Below, one piece after another: positions 16,070 to 64,000 of a stretch of DNA of 64,000 bases (positions within the stretch are counted from its first letter, which is position 1; each line of letters opens with the position of its first letter). The stretch is from the NCBI RefSeq assembly GCF_030269925.1, contig NC_085127.1, positions 7,757,501-7,821,500 on the forward strand, written 5' to 3'. This stretch comes from Bombyx mori (Eukaryota > Arthropoda > Insecta > Lepidoptera > Bombycidae). The notes under the pieces were generated by a model. It made no database searches. It saw only the letters and a list, made by a program, of their open reading frames with translations, and was not told the origin of the DNA. Position numbers and translations under genes: made by a program.

Positions 16070-16437
16070 TTAAGGGGCTATTCCTACTACTCATGGACCA
16101 CCGGCTCACGGGCTCAACCTGAGAGAATTGCTAACACTAACCCAAGCGAGAGCAGTGCTTTGCTGAATCTACCGTTGGATCGGAATCGCAACCCACTGAG
16201 AAGATCCGGTGAGAAACTCAGTGGGTCTATGGGTTAGTTCGCACGTCAAACTCTTCGTCGTATACGACGAGTTCGAAGAGAACGGCGACCGGTGCTCAAA
16301 CAACTGAGAGTGGATCCGGAGGATTCGACAAGACCTGTTTTGGGCGACGGCGGCTTTGCGTTGCTCCGTCGCTTGGGTCAGATACGTAATTAGCGTCGGC
16401 CACGATAAGAGGATTAGCATGTCACGCTGCTTTATCA
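16070..16437 (-). pseudogene. LINE family B, ORF2 C-terminus plus 3' UTR
   Basis: The upstream part on the minus strand encodes the end of ORF2 (KAA.HANPLIVA, then SRRRPKQVL), matching LIVAAGNYIPDP and RRRPKHVI of the longer family B copy at 18.9 kb. Downstream is UTR with CCACTGAGAAGATCCGG. No clear A tail or target duplication was seen at the left edge. Confidence 0.7.
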
Positions 16438-17224
16438 AAATAAAAAGTGACTACTTAAGAGTTTCGCTTTTTATCTTTTTGAAGACTGTTGTACCCTAAC
16501 ACTAAAAAGACAGAACAAGTAAAAAAAAACAGTTAATGTATTATATATAAGCAATTTAGTATTAGGAAAATATGTAAGATAATGTTAATCGATATTTTAT
16601 TATGATTAAACTGGGTGTTCATTTACATACATGGTGCCAGCTTTGTTGAGCTCATTTCATCAAAATTTTGATTTGTTATATTGTTTATAAAAAAAAGTTT
16701 TTTTCCTAATTGACTTACAACGAAACACCCGCATTCATGATTAAAAAGACAGTTTTGGTACCCTCCAAAGTTCGAGGTTGAAATTTCAAACAAATTTCAC
16801 CCTTTATCACTGGAGCTGACACAAATTCACATTAAACTTTTAATAGTATGCAGAGTGCGTTTGTTTGTATCTAGTCGCCTCTTATTACGTGCTGTTAAAT
16901 TAAATTTCGGCCACGTAATAACCAAAGTAAGCTGTGACCTTTCATTTCGTTCGTTCTGGTGGGTAATTAGTTTGTTTCCAAGAAATGATTAGCTTAATGA
17001 CTTGAAAAAGCTTATATTAATTGGCGGAATTTTAAAACCCGAAGACTTACTGACCTTCTTGTGTTACAGAGGTTCGCGTGACTAATTATCCATTTAGTAA
17101 TAAAACATTTTACGTAATTTTGTAATTAAGAAAACTAACCGAAAGAAGGCCAATTCAACTCGAAATACGCAAAACATTAACCGAAACTCGCTCCTTTGCT
17201 TTCGGCTTAAATTAAATAGGTACT
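16438..17224. other. AT-rich spacer
   Basis: No recognised content. Confidence 0.5.
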
Positions 17225-18692: not shown

Positions 18693-20030
18693 TTTTTTTT
18701 TCCCTACCTAAGCTAGTGGTAGCCTAGAGAGGCTATTCCAGCGTAACCGTAACTAGTAGGTGAGCTCACGGGGCTCAAACCTGACGACGATGCTAACACG
18801 AACCCTAGCAGAAGCCGTGCTTCGCAGAATCTACCACCGGATCGGAAACGCGATCCACTGAGAAGATCCGGCGAGAAACTCAGTGGGCTGTGTCTGAGAG
18901 TTAATTTACTCGTCGAGCCCTTCGTCGCAAGCGACGGGTTCGACGAGAACGGTGACCGGTGCTTGAAGTACCTAGAAGCACCGTTAGTGGATCGGGAGGA
19001 TCCGAGATGACGTGTTTTGGGCGACGTCGACTGCTTTCCATTCTGTCCACAGGATCGGGAATGTAGTTACCGGCGGCCACGATGAGAGGGTTCTCGTGTC
19101 GTGCCGCTTTATCGAAGTGGCGCATCGACGCCGACTGCAAATACTTACTGACGGACTCTAAGTCCAGGTCGTCATGGAGGTCGACGTTCCTGACGAACCA
19201 TGGGGCTCCAACGGCTATCCTGCAAAAACGGGATTGAATAATTTGGAAGGATTTTAAGTGAGTGCGGGCCGCGTGAGCGAACACTACACTTGCATAGGTC
19301 ATGACGGGGCGTATGCAAGTTTTGTAGAGTGTCACCTTATTTCTAAAGGACATTTTACTTCGCCTGCATATCATCGGGTAGAGACGTCCTAGAATGAAGG
19401 CGGCACGGTCGCGTACCGTCTTAATATGAGGGCGGAATGTCATCCTTCTGTCGAGGGTGACGCCTAAATTTTTGACCTTCGGGGTCCACGGTATGGGCTG
19501 GTCGAACATCGTGATTGGGCGAATGGCGGAGGCGGAGGTGTCGTCGCGCCTAGACGGGAGAGGGATGCTCAACGTGGTGTTCGGAGGGCGAACCCTTTTG
19601 AAGAGCACCGCTGTGCTTTTCGTGGGGTTGATGTCGATGCGCCACTTCCGGAACCACTGTCCCATGGTGGTAGCTGCGGTCTGAAGTCGCCGACAAAGCA
19701 ACGCCTTCTTCCTACACGAGTAGTAGATGGCGGTGTCATCGGCGAAGAGCGCCAGATGGGTCTCCGGAGAGCGGGATATATCATTGATCTACAAACTGAA
19801 TAATAACGGGGAGAGGGCGGAGCCTTGCGGGACTCCGGCTGTGACGTGACGGGGGCGGGATCGCGTTCCCTCGACTCGATATCGGAACGAACGGTTCGAC
19901 AAGTAGTCTCGTATGATGAACACGAGTCTGTCTGGCACTCCCATGTTATACAGTTTGTATATCAAACCGTTATGCCAGACTTTGTCGAACGCTTTCGCTA
20001 TATCGAAGAAGAGGGCTCCTGTCGGGATGG
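18693..20030 (-). mobile_element. LINE family B, 5'-truncated insertion with target duplication
   Basis: 1,338 bases flanked by the 9-bp direct repeat TTCCTTCGC (18684-18692 and 20031-20039) and ending on its own strand in an A9 tail. It holds the reverse transcriptase from motif A to the C-terminus and about 200 bases of 3' UTR. All features fit target-primed reverse transcription, with 5' truncation at an IPTGALF codon block. This is the best copy of the family in the window and the reference for identifying the fragments. Confidence 0.92.
18901..20030 (-). pseudogene. Reverse transcriptase ORF2 fragment (jockey-like), one stop codon
   Basis: One continuous frame on the minus strand ending at TAA (18901-18903). 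RT motif A is FFDIAKAFDKVWH (catalytic D near 20002-20004), motif B GVPQGSALSPLLFSL, and motif C LFADDTAIYYS (19735-19749) keeps both catalytic aspartates. The thumb follows with LGVTLDRRMTF and LYKTCIRPVMTYASVVF, then a basic C-terminus (RSRRTRRLRRRARRVN). The single defect in the part that survives is TAG at 19789-19791, where related enzymes have Y in LYINDI. The endonuclease and N-terminal RT are missing. The upstream 10 codons that extend the frame belong to Bm1. Confidence 0.9.
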
Positions 20031-20172
20031 TTCCTTCGCCGTGGAGGTCAATCATGAACATTTGTTGAGTACGTATTTTATTAGAAAAATTGGTACCTGC
20101 CTAAGATTCGAACACCGGTGCATCGCTCAACACGAATGCACCAGACATCTTATCCTTTAGGCCACGACGACC

Positions 20173-63164: not shown

Positions 63165-63360
63165 GCACGGTGAACCATTCTCGCTCACGACTCGGTCGTG
63201 CGCGGACGTGCTTTCCGATCCGTGGCCCGCTTGCGAGCCGCGTCTCTGAACTCACAGTTGTGCTCGACAGTGTAGTGACCGTGAATACATCGTGCGTACA
63301 ATTCGGTAGTGCGGACGTGCCGATCCGTTGGTCGCTTGCGATCTGCGTATCGAGGTCCAT
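63165..63360 (+). repeat. Duplicated ~110-base unit, candidate LINE 5' UTR monomers
   Basis: CGGTCGTGCGCGGACGTGCT, CCGATCCGTGGCCCGCTTGC and GAGCCGCGTCTC recur about 110 bases later as CGGTAGTGCGGACGTG, CCGATCCGTTGGTCGCTTGC and GATCTGCGTATCG. The copies differ at many positions, so the duplication is old. Tandem 5' units that carry a promoter are known from several LINEs; here that role is inference from position upstream of a possible ORF1. Confidence 0.55.
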
Positions 63361-63405
63361 TTTTGTGCGCTAAAGTTTTGTAACCGCGAACCCACCCTTA
63401 CCAAC

Positions 63406-63718
63406 TGCCTTTTTCAAGGCAACCAATCGCTACGTTCAGCTTCCTGTGGCACTCACAGGCTAGCGATTTCCTAACCCTTCCCAAAAACAACAGTCTTTTT
63501 CAAGACTAGACCCCCGCTCGCGATTCTGCCTGCTGTAGCACTATACAGCCCGAGCGGGTTCCTTTCCTTTTCCCCGCCGATTGCCGTTTTCACGGCATAG
63601 GCATTCCCCCCCCCTGCTCCTTGCTGTCCTGCAGCACAGGGGGGTTACAAATCCTATCCTATCCGGGGCCTCGCCTTTCGGCGAGTTCAACAAAAGTCCC
63701 GGGGCCGCCCCCCCCGGG
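63406..63718. repeat. Array of alternating structured hairpins in the leader
   Basis: X-type: 6-bp stems closing TTTC at 63406-63421 (TGCCTT), 63492-63507 (AGTCTT), 63582-63597 (TGCCGT) and 63670-63685 (CTCGCC). Y-type: two-tiered stem-loops at 63425-63468, 63513-63558 and 63609-63644, each with an 8-bp outer stem (AATCGCTA, CCCGCTCG, CCCCCCTG) and a 5-6 bp inner stem (CCTGTG, GCTGTA, TGCTG). Y1 and Y2 loops are GCACT and GCACTA. A final CCCGGGG/CCCCGGG stem is at 63698-63718. Linkers before each X are C/T-rich. Pairing is exact throughout while sequences differ. Confidence 0.85.
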
Positions 63719-63736
63719 CAAGAAGCAAGAAGAAAC

Positions 63737-64000
63737 ATGGAAGAAAGTGCAAGTGTTTGTGACAGTGATCTTGTCGGGTTCCTCCGGGATAGGTACCCGT
63801 CAATTAGGGCCGAATATTTAGCATTTAGGGCCTCTCGTGGCAATCCCTCCCCCCCCGCGTCCGTCGCCGCGTATTTCAACCGTGCCTCGGAGGCACGCCG
63901 CGCGCCCCCCGCCGCGTTAAGTTCGAGCGCACGTTCCGACGATGCGACTCACGAAGCGCCTAGCGCTACCCCCACCCCCGCGCCCGCGTCGATTACGTCA
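63737..64000 (+). CDS. Partial frame, candidate LINE ORF1 (gag-like) N-terminus
   Basis: 88 codons open to the window edge; no stop seen. ATG has a good context (AAACATGG). The frame has no stop back to 63539, but no earlier ATG. Product begins MEESASVCDSDLVGFLRDRY, then PSIRAEYLAFRASRGNPSPP, ASVAAYFNRASEARRAPPAA, followed by an S/T/P/A-rich stretch with acid residues. A short folded start followed by a low-complexity P/S/A region is common in non-LTR ORF1 proteins, and the GC-rich codons match the RT frames of LINEs in this window, not the AT-rich flanks. No zinc knuckle or coiled coil falls within the visible part. It could instead be a host first exon. Confidence 0.5.
   Translation, partial: MEESASVCDSDLVGFLRDRYPSIRAEYLAFRASRGNPSPPASVAAYFNRASEARRAPPAALSSSARSDDATHEAPSATPTPAPASITS

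Follow-up and report, generated by a model that had tools for sequence, protein, structure and literature searches.

Why hairpins with different stems and one common loop should follow each other at regular intervals directly upstream of an open reading frame is the question raised by positions 63391–63740 of the window, by which is meant the whole analysed stretch of 64,000 nucleotides. The original prediction described four hairpins with a TTTC loop and perfect 6-bp stems, and these were recovered at starts 63406, 63492, 63582 and 63670, with the predicted spacing of 86, 90 and 88 nt and linkers of 23, 23 and 25 nt before the second, third and fourth. Three larger stem-loops with 8-bp outer stems also lie where they had been placed, the first two with GCACT(A) loops, 5' bulges of 10 and 11 nt and a 1-nt 3' bulge. 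The proposed repeating module holds for the first three small hairpins (X1–X3), which alternate with the larger ones (Y1–Y3), but not for the fourth (X4), which is a separate hairpin adjoining the ATG. The segment itself had been drawn too long, since its end at 63740 overlaps ORF1, whose ATG occupies 63737–63739.

All these features lie on the plus strand. X1 (63406–63421; TGCCTT-TTTC-AAGGCA, 5' flank CCAAC), X2 (63492–63507; AGTCTT-TTTC-AAGACT, 5' flank ACAAC) and X3 (63582–63597; TGCCGT-TTTC-ACGGCA, 5' flank CCGAT) resemble the histone 3' stem-loop. Y1 (63425–63468) has an 8-bp outer stem, a 10-nt 5' bulge, a 6-bp inner stem, the loop GCACT and a 1-nt 3' bulge; Y2 (63513–63558) has the same stems and 3' bulge, with an 11-nt 5' bulge and the loop GCACTA; and Y3 (63609–63644) is shorter, with an 8-bp outer stem, a 5-nt 5' bulge, no 3' bulge and a loop unlike GCACT(A). 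The linkers of the array are unpaired and pyrimidine-rich. The GCACU(A) loops could kiss UAGUGC upstream or AGUGC past the ATG.

The abundance of these hairpins exceeds that of shuffled sequence, as predicted: none of 5000 dinucleotide-shuffled versions of the 350-nt segment contained two or more TTTC hairpins, and seven contained one. Elsewhere in the window there are two on the plus strand and none on the minus strand. Folding of 63391–63740 gave z-scores of −4.85 (plus strand) and −3.35 (minus strand), and on neither strand did any of 100 shuffles reach the stability of the native sequence. No ribozyme (HDV-like or hammerhead) appeared when the 5'UTR was compared with Rfam at E ≤ 10, and matches to c-di-GMP-I and anti-hemB were rejected, as they rest on a GAAA hairpin and C runs.

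The element and its relatives in the same genome

The segment occurs in at least 40 places, its own included, with 99–100% identity (40 of 476 candidates scored) in the searched genome of 461.7 Mb and 30 contigs, of which the window is part. Alignment of four full places gave an element of about 5.3 kb, extending from 63176 to about base 68464 in window numbering (L009:5464). Its leader, or 5'UTR (63176–63736, plus strand), is 561 nt long with the X-Y array as its second half, and copy alignments begin at 63176 in 26 of 28 aligned rows and two bases later in the other two, the 28 rows representing 26 distinct places with the window's own among them. ORF1 (63737–64000 and beyond the window end, plus strand) has 540 codons and a PRE_C2HC zinc-knuckle region (PF07530, E 1.6e-18), and ORF2 encodes an AP-type endonuclease and a reverse transcriptase (PF03372, PF14529 and PF00078), with no RNase H match at E ≤ 0.01 in the domain search. 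Copy alignment and these domains bear out the prediction of a LINE leader: the element (family A) is a jockey-like LINE, the clade name being one that we take from the domains. It shares both ORFs and their domains with jockey-like non-LTR retrotransposons, from which it differs in the histone-like hairpin modules of its leader.

The first half of the leader consists of two similar units with GGACGTGC (63204–63351, plus strand; GGACGTGC...CCGATCCGTKGSYCGCTTGCGA), which lie 105 bases apart as a direct repeat (D2) of 81% identity and are promoter-like, with a putative downstream-promoter-element character. GGACGTGC was also present in 17 of the 18 leaders of families B and C described below.

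Several observations concern the element as a whole. Behind the near-constant leader stand three versions of the ORF1 start, which diverge abruptly about 10 bases before the ATG (window 63726–63760, L011 and L012), as if leaders or N-termini had been swapped. X4 matches of the family A type lie about 5.3 kb apart on one strand (G000 C1:5927759, 5933062 and 5938374), like head-to-tail copies of the whole element. The window also holds partial copies of related LINEs at 18952–20073 (minus strand) and 16299–16442, with 84% and 58% protein identity to family A ORF2. A protein filed under Acinetobacter baumannii (P0001) is 72% identical to this ORF2 and is probably animal contamination.

Scanning the ORF2 alignment against viral contigs and genome contigs returned no relatives, so all leaders compared here come from the window's own genome, and the data from other species comprise ORF2 proteins only. 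Two protein searches gave at least 46 and at least 51 places, from which 26 upstream stretches were taken. A leader with X4 was present in 18 of them, 14 of type B and four of type C, each type being sampled upstream of a stop-free ORF2, and the other eight carried no such leader. X1–X3 were absent from all 18 sampled B and C leaders, indicating that they are not required by every relative.

Further relatives came from the X-like hairpin pattern CAACNGNCVTTTTCANGNC, in which base pairs 1 and 3 are free and base pair 5 is other than T, and which matched 41 places genome-wide. Eight of these have the sequence of the histone H1 stem-loop and lie on contig C24, one of which (L112) was checked as lying behind an H1 gene; because the pattern was composed after sight of the H1 stem-loop, they are not independent evidence. 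Twelve of the 33 other places were fetched, of which 11 belong to family D and one, an old copy (L122), to family E, and a search with L122 gave a second family E copy (L125, 72%). The family D array has two modules, one fewer than the three of family A, and reads X (AGTCTT-TTTA-AAGACT), Y (loop GCACT), X (TGCCGT-TTTC-ACGGCA), a second Y and X4 (TTTC). The first X of family E (TGCCGT-TTTC-ATGGCA) contains one G-U pair and is followed by a Y with the loop TCATTA (L122) or GCATTA (L125), a decayed second X and X4. Another locus (L126) matches family E at X4 and ORF1 only, and the lone genome-wide match to RTGTGGCACTCACAY (L127) was set aside as chance, having no match to family E or LINE ORF queries.

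X4 (63670–63685, plus strand; CTCGCC-TTTC-GGCGAG) is present in sampled leaders of families A to D and decayed in E. Its loop is TTTC in families A and D and GCAA in B, C and E (in E seen in L122), the 18 sampled B and C leaders having GCAA in 17 cases and GCAG in one B copy. The X4 pattern with any loop (GGGGCCTCGCCNNNNGGCGAG) matched 1901 places, and the 100 matches listed of these have the loops TTTC, GCAA, GTAA or GCTA. Among 19 places fetched, X1–X3 accompanied all 14 with the TTTC loop, in four of which base pair 3 of X1 is a U-G pair, and none of the five with GTAA or GCTA. The block before the ATG, GGGGCCTCGCC-loop-GGCGAG with CCCGGGG downstream, is kept across the sampled leader types, with GGGGA in D and decay in E, and its loop alternates between UUUC and GCAA or close variants.

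Pairing within and between families

Seven X rows from families A, D and E were paired in 42 of 42 cells, a count that excludes the mismatch-bearing hairpins (the decayed second X of L122 and both X of L125). Base pairs 1, 3 and 5 vary on both sides; base pairs 2 (G-C), 4 (C-G) and 6 (U-A) and the loop UUU(C/A) are invariant. Covariation among these rows was 0.587, compared with 0.203 (sd 0.069) for shuffles, none of 500 being as high, but it rests on few events, since the seven rows hold only four different stems. Two of the five covariation measures did not beat the shuffles: for double-change pairs 344 of 500 were as high, and for further pair types 359. Control (a) can be exceeded by related sequences.

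Five hand-aligned Y rows, excluding A_Y3 and the second Y of families D and E, which have another shape, were paired in 69 of 70 cells, with double changes in 11 of the 14 pairs, and exchanging their 3' arms reduced pairing to 165 of 280 cells, or 139 of 252 when the exchange between the two E copies is left out. RNAfold preferred a slightly different form for D_Y1, in which the outer stem has seven pairs and the bulge forms a small additional hairpin; for the Y of L125 it gave a weakened inner stem. Inner pairs 3–5 (UGU/ACA) are identical in all five rows of the three families, which have 5' bulges of 9–12 nt, and four of the five loops read GCAYU, L122 being the one that differs (window 63425–63558, L113:230–275, L122:347–394 and L125). 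Rfam scans named no counterpart for the Y hairpins.

Family A copies are so young that their identity with one another is uninformative. Substitutions shared by at least two of 41 rows, representing 40 distinct places, fell in one of 130 stem columns and eight of 205 others, a difference that is not significant (Fisher p 0.16). Indels fall outside the stems, except for an AA insertion aligned to the edge of the 3' arm of X1, and fetched copies with AAACC at this edge retain the arm.

These counts bear on whether the hairpins are a functionless by-product of an old tandem duplication, a reading that is very improbable. The modules are plainly derived by duplication, and the depletion of stem changes within family A is the non-significant one just given; the pairing counts contradict this reading, because stems differ between modules and between families with pairing kept throughout X and in all but one cell of Y, and because the exchange of Y 3' arms destroys so much of it. 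The original prediction had taken different sequence with kept pairing as a mark of selection on RNA structure, and selection on the X-Y leader RNA structure is indeed likely from these comparisons, since the arrays of families D and E, in this same genome, have other stems and are still paired.

Likeness to the histone 3' stem-loop

No described counterpart of the array had been known to the original prediction, a statement that no longer holds for the X hairpins, which resemble the histone 3' stem-loop by Rfam model, by a model built from the hairpins themselves and by comparison with histone H1. The Rfam scan of the 5'UTR, which preceded any idea of histones, matched RF00032 at X1 with 22.9 bits (E 0.00059), below the cut-off of 34. 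RF00032 did not match X2 or X3 scanned alone, nor L113 and L116 of family D or L122 of family E. Across the genome, 43 RF00032 matches were listed with 18.8–33.5 bits, including 25.6–33.3 bits beside histone genes confirmed by tblastn, and as all of those listed, with the highest at 33.5 bits, score below 34, the Rfam cut-off is unsuited to this species. No family A leader was recognised among the matches listed, for which 75 of 152870 candidates were scored, so this listing is neutral on the LINE. Four matches of 21.1 bits (L104–L107) were rejected as leaders, their hairpin GGTGCTTTTAGGCACC belonging to a repeat with a match to the 3' portion of related LINEs.

A covariance model made from X1–X3 alone (R1) was run on 14 of the 30 loci found with RF00032 (42.6 kb, partly overlapping) and gave 20 rows, 19 of them at E ≤ 0.0022. 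Of these 19, 17 correspond to 11 distinct places in a histone cluster or beside a histone gene; no nearby histone gene was found by tblastn for L038, L044 and the weak L029. Because the loci had been chosen by RF00032, ten of the 11 places mostly reflect agreement of the two models. The remaining one is new: the top R1 match, at 30.6 bits, is a stem-loop behind a histone H1 gene, confirmed by its linker-histone domain in Pfam, which is absent from the RF00032 matches listed. Unrelated sequence scored at most 12.3 bits across the 64-kb window and at most 13.3 bits across 38 other loci (68 kb), a specificity that covers the fetched sequence. On the hairpins of families D and E, R1 gave 34.8, 28.5 and 19.3–19.9 bits, and 11.2 bits on the decayed E hairpin.

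The reciprocal model, R2, made from the core histone stem-loops of this genome, recovered X1 alone in the window and weakly (14.5 bits, E 0.08), the D and E hairpins with 9.3–11.3 bits and the H1 stem-loop with 20 bits; since R2 finds X1 only weakly, the likeness of the X hairpins is to the form of H1 and not to the core form. A core rule that follows the histone consensus and was composed after sight of X1–X3 (base pair 2 G-C, base pairs 3 and 4 Y-R, base pair 6 U-A and loop UYUN) described only X1–X3 among 88 readings, which cover 44 places with perfect 6-bp/4-nt hairpins in the window on both strands, and none of 64 readings taken from 36 loci, those of families B and C among them. Taken together, X and histone rows were paired in 72 of 72 cells and had the same base pairs 2, 4 and 6 in 12 of 12 rows.

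The features shared with the histone 3' stem-loop are the 6-bp stem with a 4-nt loop, found in X1–X3, the D hairpins and, with its one G-U pair, E_X1; the G-C second pair and closing U-A pair, found in seven of seven LINE X rows and five of five histone rows when the decayed E hairpins are excluded; and the loop. The loop consensus of histone stem-loops is UYUN, UUUa in Rfam, and the X hairpins have UUUC, or UUUA in D_X1. An A/C-rich 5' flank is also common to both. An A after the stem occurs in A_X1, A_X2, D_X2 and E_X1, but not in A_X3 or the two D_X1 rows. The X hairpins differ from the histone element in their first pair, which is U-A or A-U in all seven rows and not G-C, and in their 5' flank, where the two A's before the stem are replaced by C or T at −1 with A at −2 in seven of seven rows; the 22.9 bits of X1 also lie below the Rfam gathering score of 34. 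Their position differs as well, as the histone stem-loop forms the end of a non-polyadenylated mRNA and is followed by a U7 site, whereas the X hairpins lie in a 5'UTR upstream of ORF1 and not at a processed 3' end, in two or three tandem copies alternating with Y hairpins.

The stem-loop closest to the X hairpins is that of this genome's H1 (CAAC-AGCCCU-UUUC-AGGGCU-AACAA), which likewise has A-U as its first pair and C at −1. H1, X1 and X2 depart alike from the core histones in having CAAC on the 5' side and a first pair other than G-C, and X1 and the H1 stem-loop have this CAAC and most of the 3' flank in common, with stems that differ by compensated pairs. The X hairpins may have originated by capture of a piece of histone 3'UTR or by convergence, two origins indistinguishable here.

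The histone likeness also bears on the strand. The original prediction had raised an antisense or minus-strand product, and every family A X loop does read GAAA on the minus strand, which itself folds below shuffles (z −3.35). The plus strand, however, is the mRNA strand and folds further below them (z −4.85), the positions that never vary are the ones of the histone element as read on the plus strand, the UUUA loop of family D reads UAAA on the minus strand, which is not of the GNRA type, and in 17 of the 18 B and C leaders sampled it is on the plus strand that X4 has a GNRA loop, GCAA. That the functional strand is the minus strand, as antisense RNA or cDNA, thus has little support and is scarcely credible.

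A candidate role in SLBP binding

The array, its compensatory pairing across families A, D and E and its likeness to the histone element, above all to that of H1, are observed; binding by SLBP, an effect on translation, export or timing and a role of Y are what we infer. As the hairpins keep the recognition features of the histone stem-loop, they suggest that the element borrows the host's machinery for histone messages so as to be active during DNA replication. SLBP is abundant in S phase. That X1–X3 are tandem docking sites for SLBP, through which the LINE would borrow S-phase handling of histone mRNA, is an evenly poised proposition. The fuller account is one of molecular mimicry, by a LINE, of the host's replication-dependent class of mRNA: a LINE lineage would have copied the histone stem-loop into its 5'UTR, multiplied it and kept it there, with SLBP licensing the element's RNA for translation and delivery in S phase alone. 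This account is put forward more tentatively, with a probability somewhat short of even.

Under the SLBP proposal, the leader RNA would present tandem mimics of the histone stem-loop, each with a bulged partner hairpin. Bound SLBP would recruit the translation machinery to the LINE RNA through SLIP1 and eIF4G or eIF3, as for histone mRNA, and this help would be confined to S-phase cells. Several sites per leader would give higher avidity, possibly allowing a weak mimic to compete with histone mRNA. Passages of PMC10388802 describe a nanomolar affinity of SLBP for the histone stem-loop, a minimal site in which the stem is preceded by two A's and followed by one, and a contact between G7, in the second pair, and Arg181 of SLBP. 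Recruitment of translation through SLIP1 and eIF4G or eIF3 is described in passages of PMC5706932 and PMC7084953. A viral frameshift RNA is reported as bound by SLBP (PMC12166091), so that SLBP may also have sites in RNAs other than histone mRNA.

The Drosophila telomeric elements HeT-A, TART and TAHRE have jockey kinship. Like human L1, they have life cycles tied to S phase: E2F1-Dp transcription gives expression of the telomeric elements at the G1-S transition (in passages of PMC11698117), and L1 insertion peaks in S phase, with a link to replication through dNTP supply and replication forks (in passages of PMC5821460). The word SLBP does not occur in the main texts of these two papers, and no description of SLBP or of a histone stem-loop in a retrotransposon leader was found among the open-licence PMC papers listed by the literature searches. 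If true, the SLBP proposal would add a direct link between a LINE and S phase at the level of RNA, beside transcriptional links or those through dNTPs and forks, and would show that SLBP sites can serve in tandem and within a 5'UTR. A natural panel of site variants would then be available in families A, D and E, with the B and C leaders as counterparts without sites.

The array could instead bind the LINE's own ORF1 or ORF2 protein and mark the RNA for its own particles, the histone likeness being a coincidence to which a hairpin so short, and with so U-rich a loop, is open; this is unlikely, though it carries some weight. Arrays of constant-loop hairpins that bind a protein are known from the phage MS2 and PP7 operators, and the X array resembles these in its tandem hairpins, constant loop and free stems, the features required by a coat-like protein that multimerises. 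It differs from them in alternating two hairpin types and in loop and pair constraints that follow a host mRNA element. Family D combines another ORF1 start with a two-module array, as own-protein binding might allow, and the conservation of UGU/ACA in five of five Y rows and of GCAYU in four of five means that a recognised motif unlike that of histones may exist in Y. Such binding is harder to reconcile with a leader that is near-constant in front of three different ORF1 starts, with sampled B and C leaders that have X4 and a similar ORF1 start and lack X1–X3, and with invariant positions that are those of the histone consensus, the best outside matches of R1 being histone genes.

A structured leader for translation entry, IRES-like or assisting scanning, which would act by its shape and pyrimidine-rich linkers and without SLBP, is improbable. 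The array does lie directly upstream of ORF1, with linkers that are unpaired and rich in pyrimidines, and X4 with its GC-rich block adjoins the ATG in all five sampled leader types. Shape alone, however, explains neither the constancy of base pairs 2, 4 and 6 and of UUU(C/A) nor the module numbers of two in family D and three in family A.

Two further observations concern the histone loci. At L036, L038 and L044, histone-like stem-loops score 27.3–32.6 bits with RF00032, and tblastn detected no histone gene within the 3 kb of the locus. Copies of a related LINE, with ORF2 86–88% identical to that of family A at the protein level, lie between the histone genes of contig C24 (L039, L040, L045 and L050–L053), where they seem to have multiplied along with the histone repeats.
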